Of a DNA stretch of 64,000 nucleotides, positions 24,988 to 29,233 are shown one piece after another (the stretch's first letter is position 1; each line of letters starts with the position of its first letter). The notes below the pieces were generated by a model, which saw only the letters and a program-made list of their open reading frames with translations, did no database searches and was not told the DNA's origin. The stretch comes from Halorussus salinus (GTDB taxonomy: Archaea > Halobacteriota > Halobacteria > Halobacteriales > Haladaptataceae), in the NCBI RefSeq assembly GCF_004765815.2, contig NZ_SBIS02000008.1, positions 1 through 64,000 of the forward strand, in the 5' to 3' direction. The position numbers and the translations under genes are program-made.

Positions 24988-25659
24988 ATGCCATCCACAC
25001 GAACGTCGCTCTCGAAGGCCGCGGAGATACCGCCGCCGACCGCGCTCGGACTCGTCGTCTCGCTCCTCGCGCTGCCGGGATTCGCGTGGGCGACGACCGC
25101 GTTCGACCTCGCTCTCTCGCCGGTCGTCTTCGTCGCCGTCCAGTGGGCCGTCGCGCTCGTCGTCGTCGCGCTCGCGGTCGGCGTCGAGAACCGGTCGCTC
25201 GCCTCGGTCGGGTTCCGGCGGCCGGAACGAACGGACGCGCTCGCGTTCGCCGGTACGGTGGTCGCCGCGATGGTCGTGTTCGCGGCGACCGACCCGCTCG
25301 TCGGGGCGCTCGGTCTCCCGATTCGGGACGACGCGGGGACGCTCTCGGCGGGGATCGGTCTCTCGGTCGCACTCGCTCGCGCTGTCACGACCGGCGTCGT
25401 CGAAGAAATCCTCTTCCGGGGCTACCCCGTCGAGCGACTGCTCGATTTCACCGACAGTCCGCTCCTCGCGGGCGGTACGACGTGGGGCGTCTTCACCACC
25501 GCCCACGCCGTCGTCTGGCCGCTCGGAAACCTCGTCCAGATTTCGGCCGTCGCGGCGGTGTTCACCGCGGTCTACCTCCGCCGTCGGACGCTGGTGCCCG
25601 TGGTCGGCGCGCACGTCGCGGTCTGGACGCTCTCGGTCCTCGGGCAGTTCTACGGGTGA
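24988..25659 (+). CDS. CPBP-family intramembrane metalloprotease
   Basis: Six to seven hydrophobic helices carry the CPBP/Rce1 motifs: EEILFRG (motif 1, EExxxR), FTTAH (motif 2, FxxxH) and a final HVAVW where the usual Asn of HxxxN is replaced by Trp. Family members cleave within membranes or act as immunity/processing factors. TATA-like GTTTTAGG lies ~30 bp before the ATG. Divergent from the 38-residue gene. Confidence 0.85.
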   Translation: MPSTRTSLSKAAEIPPPTALGLVVSLLALPGFAWATTAFDLALSPVVFVAVQWAVALVVVALAVGVENRSLASVGFRRPERTDALAFAGTVVAAMVVFAATDPLVGALGLPIRDDAGTLSAGIGLSVALARAVTTGVVEEILFRGYPVERLLDFTDSPLLAGGTTWGVFTTAHAVVWPLGNLVQISAVAAVFTAVYLRRRTLVPVVGAHVAVWTLSVLGQFYG

Positions 25660-25715: not shown

Positions 25716-26684
25716 CTACTCCAGCGGCTCCAGTCCCTCCTCGGCGCGGAGGGCGTCGATGTACTCCCGGAAGCCCGTTTCGAGGTCGTACTCCGGGTCG
25801 TAGCCCAAATCTTCCTGCGCGTCGGTCATGTCGAGTTTCTGGGTCCACGGGAGTTCGCCCTCGTCGCTGACCTCGATTTCGGCGTCTGGCATAATCGAGC
25901 GCACCGCCTCGGCGGCCTCCCGAATCGTGGCGACCTCGCCACGGACGTTGTAGATGCGCTGGCTCAGGTCCTCCTCGGGTGCGAACGCCGCCTTCCGGAA
26001 GGCTTGGGCGATGTCCTTGACGTACTGCCAGTCGATAACTTGGTCGCCGTACTCGACGGAGAACGGTTCGCCGACCGCTGGCTTCTCCACGATGTCCGCG
26101 AGGAACGCCGACCCGCCGGTCTCGCGGTAGGGGCCGTAGGCGACTGTCGGGCGCAGACCGACGTGAGAGATGTCGTGGTCCTCGAAGTAGACTTTCGCCT
26201 GATGCTCGTTGTACTCCTTGGTCGCGCCGTAGAGCGTGTCGGGGTAGACGAGGTCCTCCTCGTCCACCCACTCGTCGTCGTAGTTCGCGGGCGGGGCGTA
26301 GACCGCCGCCGAGGAGGCCCACGCCACGCGCTCGACTTGCTCGTCTAACGTCCGGGCGGCCTCGAAGACGTTGTTCGTGCCCATGACGTTGACCTCCGCG
26401 GCCCCGCGGGGGTTGTCCCGCGCGAGGTTCGTCAGGAGCGCGGCGAGGTGGACGATGCGGGTCGCGCCCGACTCCTTCACGGCCCGAATCACGCTCGTCG
26501 GGTCGGTGATGTCGCCGCGCGTGACTTCCACGTCGTCGGCGACGCCCAGTTTCTCCAGAATCCGGGTGTCGGTCGAGAGGTCGTAGGCCACTACGTCGTG
26601 GCCCGCTTCCGCGAGGTCCTGTGCGACGTACGAGCCGATGAAGCCGGTGCCGCCCGTGACGAGTACCGTCTCTGAGTCTGCCAT
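25716..26684 (-). CDS. NAD-dependent epimerase/dehydratase (extended SDR)
   Basis: The Rossmann motif GGTGFIG sits at residues ~9-15. The catalytic YxxxK is YGATK, with upstream Ser in WASSAAVY. Length (322 residues from ATG 26684) is typical of UDP-sugar 4-epimerase-like extended SDRs. An N-terminal extension of three residues (MRA) is possible but poor. No glycosyltransferase cluster adjoins, so the sugar substrate is unknown. Confidence 0.88.
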   Translation of the reverse strand: MADSETVLVTGGTGFIGSYVAQDLAEAGHDVVAYDLSTDTRILEKLGVADDVEVTRGDITDPTSVIRAVKESGATRIVHLAALLTNLARDNPRGAAEVNVMGTNNVFEAARTLDEQVERVAWASSAAVYAPPANYDDEWVDEEDLVYPDTLYGATKEYNEHQAKVYFEDHDISHVGLRPTVAYGPYRETGGSAFLADIVEKPAVGEPFSVEYGDQVIDWQYVKDIAQAFRKAAFAPEEDLSQRIYNVRGEVATIREAAEAVRSIMPDAEIEVSDEGELPWTQKLDMTDAQEDLGYDPEYDLETGFREYIDALRAEEGLEPLE

Positions 26685-26947
26685 CGCTCGCAAATCTGTC
26701 GGGGACCGTAAAAAAAGTGCAGTACGTTCTCACGACTTCCTCGGCGTCCCCGGCCCTCGGAGCGTTATCCCGGACCCGTCGCCCCATCCGATCTGCTTTC
26801 GTCGTTCCCTCACCGTCGTCTGTTCTCCGCCTTCCTGCCGTGTCTCCTCGCTTCCTTCTCCGTCGTCTACGCTCGACGCCACGAGCCATTCGCTGGCCGC
26901 CTGCGCGAGGGTCGATTCGCTCCTCAACTACCTTATCTATCTTACTA

Positions 26948-26966
26948 AATATAAATATTTAAATAT
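26948..26966 (+). promoter_or_regulatory. AT-rich element of small-ORF unit 1
   Basis: AATATAAATATTTAAATAT shares its first 14 bases with the element at 27284-27300. It lies 55 bp upstream of the first 23-codon ORF. It may hold a TATA box or a palindromic operator. Confidence 0.5.
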
Positions 26967-27021
26967 AGATACCGATAAATGTGATATGGGTGTAGTTCAC
27001 ACTACTCCCGAGTGATTCACA

Positions 27022-27093
27022 ATGTTCACGAATCCGCTTTCCATTTGCATCATCGACATGCTCGGAGCGTCGGGCGTCTGCGTGGTGGCGTAG
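27022..27093 (+). CDS. 23-residue Cys-containing peptide, unit 1
   Basis: ATG 27022, TAG 27091. The peptide begins MF, has Pro5, Cys9-Ile10, Gly18 and a VCVV ending (Cys20). The unit at 27359-27430 has exactly the same length and shares MF, Pro5, Cys9, Ile10, Gly18 and a terminal VCV. Both starts follow AGTGATTCA by a few bases; GTGAT could pair with the 16S rRNA 3' end (AGGAGGUGAU complement). A 17-bp palindrome follows the stop. Not recognised. Very short, but the paired conservation argues for coding. Confidence 0.5.
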   Translation: MFTNPLSICIIDMLGASGVCVVA

Positions 27094-27116
27094 GCGAACC
27101 GACGACGCATCACCTC

Positions 27117-27133
27117 GAACTCGCCGCGAGTTC
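27117..27133. terminator. Palindrome after small ORF 1
   Basis: GAACTCGC-C-GCGAGTTC is a perfect 8+1+8 palindrome 24 bp after the stop. Unit 2 carries the matching element at 27449-27465. It could be a transcript-end hairpin or a protein-binding site. Confidence 0.4.
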
Positions 27134-27283
27134 CGAACCAACCGCCGTTTCCGTGGCGAATCCGACCTCTACCGTCGAGTAGTTCTGCAAATCCGATTTT
27201 CGTCTCCGGTCGTGCGAAAGATACGCTCTTATCGGCTACTCGTCATTTGCACCAACATCTTCTCGGCATAAATTCTATCATAG

Positions 27284-27300
27284 AATATAAATATTTATAT
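27284..27300 (+). promoter_or_regulatory. AT-rich palindromic element of small-ORF unit 2
   Basis: ATATAAATATTTATAT (27285-27300) is a perfect 16-bp palindrome, 58 bp upstream of the second 23-codon ORF, and nearly repeats the element at 26948-26966. Confidence 0.5.
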
Positions 27301-27358
27301 GTTATCGTGTAGCGTGTTATCGTGTGTGTCGTTCACGCGGCACATCAAGTGATTCATC

Positions 27359-27430
27359 ATGTTCGAAATCCCATTCACGACCTGTATCGTCACCGGCATC
27401 TCGCAACCCGGTCTGCCCGTCTGCGTGTAG
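27359..27430 (+). CDS. 23-residue Cys-containing peptide, unit 2
   Basis: ATG 27359, TAG 27428. It has the same length as unit 1 and a similar pattern: MF start, Pro5, Thr8-Cys9-Ile10, Gly18, and Val-Cys-Val at the end. The two Cys are 13 residues apart (11 in unit 1). Upstream TGTCGTTCAC and AGTGATTCA blocks match those of unit 1 (TGTAGTTCAC at 26991, AGTGATTCA at 27011). Not recognised; candidate signalling, metal-binding or antimicrobial peptide, all by inference only. Confidence 0.5.
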   Translation: MFEIPFTTCIVTGISQPGLPVCV

Positions 27431-27448
27431 TCCGAACCGCACCGTCCG

Positions 27449-27465
27449 GGACTCGCCGCGAGTTC
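27449..27465. terminator. Palindrome after small ORF 2
   Basis: GGACTCGC-C-GCGAGTTC pairs over 8 bp in RNA (one G-U) and matches the palindrome of unit 1. The next 9 bases are also nearly shared (CGAACCGACCG versus CGAACCAACCG). Confidence 0.4.
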
Positions 27466-27526
27466 CGAACCGACCGTAGTCTCGTCTTTCGCTTTTCTTC
27501 GGCCGGAGAACCGTCCGACCGACGGG

Positions 27527-29233
27527 CTATTCGTGCAGTCCGCCGACTTCCGCGTAGAACGACGACTGCAACTGCTCGGCCATGTCCTCCTCGCGGTCGA
27601 TGCGAGCGTCGATGACGGTCGGAACGTCGTTGTCTTTCCCATCGCGGAGCGCCGCGGCCAACTCGTCGGGCGTCGTCGCTCGAACGCCTTCCGCACCGAA
27701 GCCTTCGGCGACTTTCACGAAGTCGGTGTCGTGGAACTCCACGCCCGCGATGTCGCCCTCGGCGTCCTGCATCTGGCGGACCATCCCGAGGCTGGTGTCG
27801 TTCAGCACGACGAAGGTCGGCGCGACGCCCTGCTCGACCGCGATTTCGACGCTCGTCATCGTCATCGTGAACCCGCCGTCGCCCGCGACGCCGATTACGT
27901 CTCTGTCCGTCGTGATGGCCGCCGAGACCGCGGCCGGGGTCGCCCACCCCATCCCGCCGACGCCGCCCGACCCGAAGTAGGTCCGGATACCCGGCGTCTG
28001 GAGGTAGTTCAACAGCCAGAACCGGTTGTTCCCCGAGTCGGCGGTCACGACGGTCTCGTCGTCCACGACCGCCTCGATTTCCTTGACCGCGCGCTGGGGT
28101 TTGATAGGTGCGCCGTCCTCGTCGCACTCCGGGGCCGAGAATGACTCGCGGGCAGTCGCGGCGCGCTCGCGCGCCCAGTCGTTTCCGCCCGCATTCACCT
28201 CGCCAGCGTCCGCGAGCGCCCGCAGGCTCTCTTTGGCGTCCCCTATCAACCCAACGTCTGCGGGGTACACCCACCCCGCATTCCGGGTGTCGATATCTGC
28301 GTGGATTATCGTCTGCTCGTCGGGCCGGATGAAACTCGGAGCCTGCCAGTTGGTGTCCATCGGGTTCATCCGGCATCCCGCGACGAGGAGGGCGTCGGCT
28401 TCGCTCACTACCTGATTCGCGCCCTCGTGGCCGAACGAGCCGATGACCCCGCCCGCCAACTCGTGGGTCTCGGGAATCGTGGACTTGCCGAGATACGAGG
28501 TCACGACCACCGCGTCGTAGGTCTCGGCCACGCGCTCCAGTTCGTCGTAGGCCTGCGCGGCGTGGACGCCGTTCCCGGCGATGATTACCGGCCGGTCGGC
28601 CTCGGCGAACGCCTCGGCCGCGCGCTCCACGTCGCCGTCGGTCGGCGCGCTGTCCCAGTTGCGGACCTGCTCGTCGGCGTCCCAGACGGGCGGAATCGGG
28701 TCCTCGGGGACCTCCTCGGTGATGGCGTCGCCGTCGAGGATGACCGCCGTGGGGCCGGGTCGCCCGGCGGTCGCGTGCTTGAACGCCAACTGGACGCTCC
28801 GCAACGTCTCGGTCGGCGAGCGCGGGAACCAGTGTTCCTTCGTCACGCCGTCCAGAATCTTGGGGAGGTCGAGACCGCCGTAGTCGCCACGGGACTGCTG
28901 GTAGGGCGCGAGCGTGGAGTAGTCGCCGCGCTCGCTGGCCTCGGTCAGCACGACCATCGGCGACGACGAGAGGCGCGCCTCCATCTGGCCGATGGTGCCC
29001 AAACTGCCTATCCACGGTCCCTGTCCCGCGAGGACGCCCGGCGTCTGGGTCAGGCGGCCGTACATCTCGGCCATGACGCTCCCCTCGCGCTCGTCGCGCG
29101 GCCGAACGACCTCGATGTCCGACTCGGGGAGTTCGTCCAGTAGCTCGATGACCCGGCCGCCGGGGTAGCCGAAGACGTACTCGACGCCGAGGGATTCGAG
29201 TTGGCCGACTAGCTCCTCGTTGGTTTCGGTCAT
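27527..29233 (-). CDS. Thiamine-diphosphate enzyme, acetolactate synthase-like
   Basis: The 568-residue protein has the three-domain ThDP architecture. The N-terminal Pyr domain carries GVEYVFGYPGGRVIELLDEL and the cofactor-activating Glu in RPRDEREGSVMAEMYG. The central domain follows PVIIAGNGVH. The C-terminal PP domain has the Mg-ThDP motif GDGGFTMTMTSVEIAVEQ...NDTS. It resembles acetolactate synthase large subunits, but no small regulatory subunit or other ilv gene is near, so it may be another 2-oxoacid carboligase, decarboxylase or oxidase. Confidence 0.85.
   Translation of the reverse strand: MTETNEELVGQLESLGVEYVFGYPGGRVIELLDELPESDIEVVRPRDEREGSVMAEMYGRLTQTPGVLAGQGPWIGSLGTIGQMEARLSSSPMVVLTEASERGDYSTLAPYQQSRGDYGGLDLPKILDGVTKEHWFPRSPTETLRSVQLAFKHATAGRPGPTAVILDGDAITEEVPEDPIPPVWDADEQVRNWDSAPTDGDVERAAEAFAEADRPVIIAGNGVHAAQAYDELERVAETYDAVVVTSYLGKSTIPETHELAGGVIGSFGHEGANQVVSEADALLVAGCRMNPMDTNWQAPSFIRPDEQTIIHADIDTRNAGWVYPADVGLIGDAKESLRALADAGEVNAGGNDWARERAATARESFSAPECDEDGAPIKPQRAVKEIEAVVDDETVVTADSGNNRFWLLNYLQTPGIRTYFGSGGVGGMGWATPAAVSAAITTDRDVIGVAGDGGFTMTMTSVEIAVEQGVAPTFVVLNDTSLGMVRQMQDAEGDIAGVEFHDTDFVKVAEGFGAEGVRATTPDELAAALRDGKDNDVPTVIDARIDREEDMAEQLQSSFYAEVGGLHE

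Follow-up and report, generated by a model that had tools for sequence, protein, structure and literature searches.

Organization of the Two Units in Halorussus salinus

The 64,000-nt stretch of Halorussus salinus DNA analyzed in this work (the window hereafter) carries two tandem unannotated mini-genes on the plus strand, located between a divergent NAD epimerase gene (25716-26693, minus strand) and a convergent thiamine-pyrophosphate (TPP) enzyme gene (27527-29233, minus strand). Direct reading and repeat finding assign to each unit its own promoter, leader, AGTGATTCA block, ATG, 23 codons, TAG, and hairpin; all the parts that an earlier note on this DNA had listed (promoter, leader, AGTGATTCA, 23-codon ORF, TAG, and palindrome) were recovered in both units. 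The element AATATAAATATTTA is found at 26948 and 27284, one per unit. In unit 1, an AT-rich promoter recognized by direct reading (26948-26971; TATA box TATAAATA at 26950-26957) is followed by a 5' leader hairpin that is conserved across three units (26986-27010; GGG.U.GUAG-UUCACA-CUAC.U.CCC), by AGTGATTCA as the putative Shine-Dalgarno (SD) sequence (27011-27019), by an ORF of 23 codons plus TAG (27022-27093; MFTNPLSICIIDMLGASGVCVVA), and by a 3' hairpin GAACTCG-CCG-CGAGTTC with a conserved CGAACCRACC tail (27117-27144). Unit 2 repeats this plan with a promoter (27284-27305) identified by direct reading and spacing, a leader hairpin (27322-27347), the putative SD sequence AGTGATTCA (27348-27356), an ORF of 23 codons plus TAG (27359-27430; MFEIPFTTCIVTGISQPGLPVCV), and a 3' hairpin (G)GACTCG-CCG-CGAGTTC(C) plus tail (27449-27477). 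In both, TGTMGTTCAC precedes AGTGATTCA, which ends 2 nt 5' of the ATG at 27022 or 27359, the TAG occupies 27091-27093 or 27428-27430, and the 3' hairpin runs into GCGAGTTCCGAACC. The pattern AGTGATTCAN0-4ATGTTY, i.e., AGTGATTCA-N0-4-ATGTTY, has two matches in the 4.75-Mb genome, only at units 1 and 2. The pattern exceeds chance. A homology search added a third unit (see below).

Promoter, Leader, and Putative Ribosome Site

In each of the three units, TATAAAT lies 5' of the leader start by exactly 36 nt. The window has five AT-rich 14-mer clusters in all, and two of them are the promoters of units 1 and 2. From the usual archaeal TATA spacing, the transcript presumably starts a few bases 5' of the leader hairpin. 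All three units keep this hairpin, with a single compensatory pair (A-U/C-G) and a single wobble change; the alifold z of the leader is -2.1, and a shuffle control (138/500) is not decisive with three sequences. The block AGTGATTCA is invariant in 3/3 units and can pair over approximately 8 bases with the 16S 3' end (GGATCACCTCCT, verified at the end of the 16S gene of this genome), with a computed duplex energy of -9.8 to -10.6 kcal/mol. Haloferax volcanii reportedly relies little on SD sequences (72% leaderless; the SD was without function in one tested mRNA; PMC7531240); function of AGTGATTCA as a ribosome site is thus plausible but not assured. The SD core is predicted to be mostly paired in all three transcripts through different partners, and because the occluding structure differs among the units it may be due to chance in GC-rich RNA.

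A Third Unit on a Halorussus pelagicus Plasmid

When 18 Halorussus genomes were searched at the DNA level, one strong relative emerged (E 2e-28), in Halorussus pelagicus RC-68 on plasmid unnamed1 (303 kb; NZ_CP035120.1; G010:C2:209375-209549). The unit is unannotated there; the PLSDB gene table, which is incomplete, has no entry from the epimerase to a cytochrome P450. Neighbor comparison indicates that it is syntenic with the H. salinus units, and four flanking proteins (the epimerase, the TPP enzyme, an HD protein, and the protein next to HD) are approximately 88-93% identical between the two species. Stops or frameshifts in a homologous interval had been named as the observation that would speak against the peptides; the H. 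pelagicus ORF (MSLNPLQICIIEISPSPGVCL) is intact, with 21 codons plus TAG and neither kind of lesion.

The proposed check had looked for a wider haloarchaeal spread, and this was not found: the carriers are two of the 18 Halorussus genomes. In the other 16 genomes of the genus and 10 further genomes of the family Haladaptataceae, neither the unit nor the AT-rich promoter is present upstream of the epimerase where an epimerase was found (one genome, G004, has no epimerase match). Pattern searches of all 28 family genomes and of 392 order genomes gave no further copies; as the 392 sample only part of a larger group, a rare relative may have escaped the search. Non-members appeared at E ≥ 0.012 when the RNA model was run against the 392 genomes (treated as background, not individually inspected), and outside the three units the peptide profile gave only E ≥ 0.19 in the family genomes. 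A GTDB-wide pattern scan produced eight matches, all in unrelated bacteria and taken as chance. IMG/VR contains no match with the peptide pattern and four unrelated matches with the leader pattern, and no relative was found in the phages searched. The extra matches of the leader-pattern scan were judged as chance by a backwards control and were not read in detail. Occurrences of the terminal palindrome elsewhere in the family were considered as further units; their flanks are coding-like and contain no unit, which looks like chance. A mobile element was also rejected, as the genome has no other copies and no repeat ends were seen.

In both the leader (89% vs. 71%) and the ORF (68% vs. 58%), unit 1 resembles the H. 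pelagicus unit more than it resembles unit 2, so both paralogues appear to have been intact since before the species split. Comparison of these three short sequences suggests that the duplication predates the split and that H. pelagicus lost its copy of unit 2. The slot 5' of the epimerase (26694-27527 in the window; the matching slot in loci L033-L059) varies among Halorussus, with P450, cupin, TPP-enzyme, or other neighbors, which suggests a small exchange hotspot.

Evidence for a Translated Peptide

In the three-way alignment the gaps within the ORF are of 6 nt only, and gaps of 1 nt and 5 nt are confined to the sequence outside the ORF. Column permutation of the alignment gave p = 0.0003 with any alignment and p = 0.0008 with stop-free alignments only. 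Because permutation breaks runs of conserved bases, a six-frame comparison was added as a second control: the intended frame is the best of six, averaging 2.17 BLOSUM units per pair against 0.02 to 1.63 for the remaining five. RNA structure within the ORF is not conserved and is worse than in shuffled sequences (z +1.2). The dN/dS ratio of unit 1 vs. H. pelagicus is about 0.7 over few sites, and dN is high (0.40-0.57). The selection on the peptide that the earlier note had proposed is supported across three units in two species by the frame, the triplet-only indels, the invariant C9-I10, G18, and V-C residues, and the hydrophobic composition free of Lys and Arg. Three units in two species with the same plan look real, and on these comparisons they probably encode a translated peptide under loose constraint.

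Properties of the Peptides

The peptides are 21-23 aa long with GRAVY values of 1.07-1.62 and no Lys or Arg, which places them within the <60-aa hydrophobic range of type I toxins. The GC-rich window holds 43 ATG ORFs of 20-25 aa, of which just those of units 1 and 2 are at once hydrophobic, K/R-free, and equipped with two Cys. M1, P5, C9, I10, G18, and a V-C end are invariant in the three peptides. The equal length reported earlier holds within the H. salinus genome (23 and 23 aa) and does not extend to the third peptide of 21 aa; likewise, the "Val-Cys-Val type end" stands in the form V-C-[VL] and aligns only after two-residue indels on either side. Peptide identity between unit 1 and H. pelagicus is 52%, against approximately 88-93% for the four flanking proteins, and by this comparison the peptides evolve fast. 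The two conserved Cys are 10-12 residues apart. The earlier note had offered signaling, metal-binding, or antimicrobial roles as guesses; with lone Cys at this distance and no His or CxxC, metal binding has no positive support. No family had been recognized from the sequence, in agreement with the absence of any match in Pfam, NCBIfam, and PADLOC. The C-terminal CVVA of the unit 1 peptide recalls a CAAX box; neither of the other peptides has such an end, and the likeness is probably a coincidence.

Interpretation and Alternatives

The reading that we favor, tentatively and at somewhat less than even odds, is that each unit is transcribed on its own and yields, under restrained translation, a small hydrophobic peptide that probably acts on membranes, in the manner of bacterial type I toxin loci. 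Each unit would be a free-standing micro-gene with a TATA promoter, a short structured leader, an SD sequence, an ORF of 21-23 codons, and a 3' hairpin. The mRNA would be made from its own promoter with the ribosome site held in structure, and little peptide would be produced until something opened the leader; the released peptide would then insert into the membrane of the cell itself, where the cysteines may cross-link it. The anatomy, the conservation, and a coding signal are shown by the comparisons above; that the units are transcribed and translated, that the ribosome site is occluded in vivo, and that the peptides act on membranes or are toxic at all is inferred. The tandem copies in H. 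salinus and the plasmid-borne unit in H. pelagicus favor a toxin-like role, and the predicted free-standing expression, the structured leader with its predicted buried ribosome site, and the low constraint on the sequence are likewise reminiscent of bacterial type I toxins (PMC8309996). Against it, the peptides are not cationic, only three sequences exist, and each peptide has at least one Pro and at least one acidic residue, which makes a clean transmembrane helix less than evident. The locus showed no recognizable antisense RNA gene or conserved reverse promoter, and it has no AT-rich promoter cluster besides those of the two units. Since no antitoxin RNA was found, we describe the units as working like type I loci and claim no membership.

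The chief rival is a structured regulatory sRNA of approximately 155 nt, in which the 5' and 3' hairpins and the 16S-complementary AGTGATTCA do the work and the ORF is incidental or accessory. The shell is indeed better conserved than the ORF (invariant columns 25/36 in the leader and 31/50 in the 3' part vs. 31/78 in the ORF), the leader hairpin has its compensatory pair, and haloarchaeal sRNAs that show no evidence of coding are able to bind ribosomes (PMC12482152). However, the significant in-frame coding signal, the triplet-only indels, and the worse-than-shuffled structure of the ORF argue for a peptide, the whole-unit structure z is only -1.7, and Rfam covariance models gave no match at E ≤ 1 in 26600-27700. 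We regard the sRNA as unlikely, at roughly one chance in five.

Third comes a secreted or processed two-cysteine peptide (a signal or halocin-like), perhaps with a C-x10/12-C disulfide ring and a variable stretch that sets specificity, to which we give a slightly lower probability than to the sRNA. Conservation of both Cys in 3/3 peptides and the low peptide identity next to well-conserved flanking proteins fit such diversification, and a CAAX-protease/Rce1-like (PF02517) gene is located at 24988-25656, two genes from the units. However, the part of the H. pelagicus sequence examined showed no counterpart of this protease, the peptides have no visible leader or signal sequence, and no dedicated exporter or modification enzyme was recognized among the nearby genes scanned; the peptide would have to exit the cell unaided.

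A small cytoplasmic or membrane peptide that regulates a partner protein without toxicity would have the same anatomy, and peptides this short and hydrophobic would be suited to regulating a membrane protein. Most epimerase-bearing Halorussus lack the unit, so no conserved partner is apparent, and we consider this reading a little less probable again than the secreted peptide. Decaying duplicated DNA with chance ORFs would fit the very narrow distribution and the high dN, and is improbable in view of the three intact ORFs, the invariant promoter spacing and SD sequence, the coding signal, and the nearness of unit 1 to the H. pelagicus unit, by which the paralogues have apparently long been intact.

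Comparison With Known Small-Protein Systems

Bacterial type I loci encode small hydrophobic peptides, and some of them show tandem duplication, sequestration of the ribosome binding site, or Cys residues; IbsC, ShoB, and DinQ have no positive residues in the C-terminal part (PMC8309996). Like the units described here, Ibs/Sib, ShoB/OhsC, and ZorO/OrzO encode hydrophobic peptides of 19-29 aa, some in tandem, and ZorO has a structured 5' leader. In contrast, the Halorussus units have an archaeal host, two invariant Cys plus Pro5, and no recognized antisense RNA; no sequence homology was found between the two sets of peptides, and toxicity is only proposed here. The Fst/Ldr family shares a Pro followed by a Cys (P-x3-C here, P-x3-G-C there) and a hydrophobic segment, whereas the Halorussus peptides have no Gly before Cys9, no charged C-terminus, and a second Cys near the C-terminus; they gave no Pfam or NCBIfam match at E ≤ 10 and are not assigned to that family. 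The C(P)XCG zinc-finger micro-proteins of H. volcanii (PMC10716476) are also very small Cys-containing haloarchaeal proteins; the peptides studied here are hydrophobic with lone Cys 10-12 apart and have no CxxC or CPxCG pairs, which sets them outside that group. The sRNA-encoded small proteins of H. volcanii (PMC12482152) are similar in that they derive from small intergenic transcripts with a short ORF, here predicted only. A leader peptide or attenuator was rejected because no co-directional gene is directly downstream, the next gene being convergent (27527-29233 in H. salinus; P450 in H. pelagicus).

Among the titles and abstracts searched (most subscription journals lie outside this coverage), none was found to describe a type I locus in an archaeon. 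It is possible, at perhaps one chance in four, that the units represent the first archaeal family of type-I-toxin-like or self-acting two-cysteine micropeptides, tandem, plasmid-associated, and rapidly diversifying within a conserved promoter-leader-hairpin cassette. Genes of 21-23 codons easily escape annotation, and the H. pelagicus copy is without an annotated feature in its plasmid record, for which the gene table is incomplete. If a conserved cassette does hold a rapidly evolving hydrophobic Cys peptide, archaea would seem to maintain a class of tiny membrane or signal peptides described to date mainly from bacteria.

Additional Features of the Promoter and Leader

The TATA region of unit 2 contains a perfect palindrome, TATAAATATTTATA (27286-27299), which could fire both ways, and transcription in the reverse direction would cross unit 1; the H. 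pelagicus TATA is not palindromic, so that the unit 2 palindrome is not conserved there. A long overlapping ORF in another frame (M-x-VVH..., unit 2 and H. pelagicus) was rejected, as a 1-nt deletion in unit 1 breaks it after at most 10 codons. In two of the three units the leader (26986-27012 and 27322-27356) can also be read as an open frame, M-x-V-V-H-x-x; the frame in the unit 1 leader, MGVVHTTPE*, stops right at the ribosome site and could be an upstream mini-ORF.
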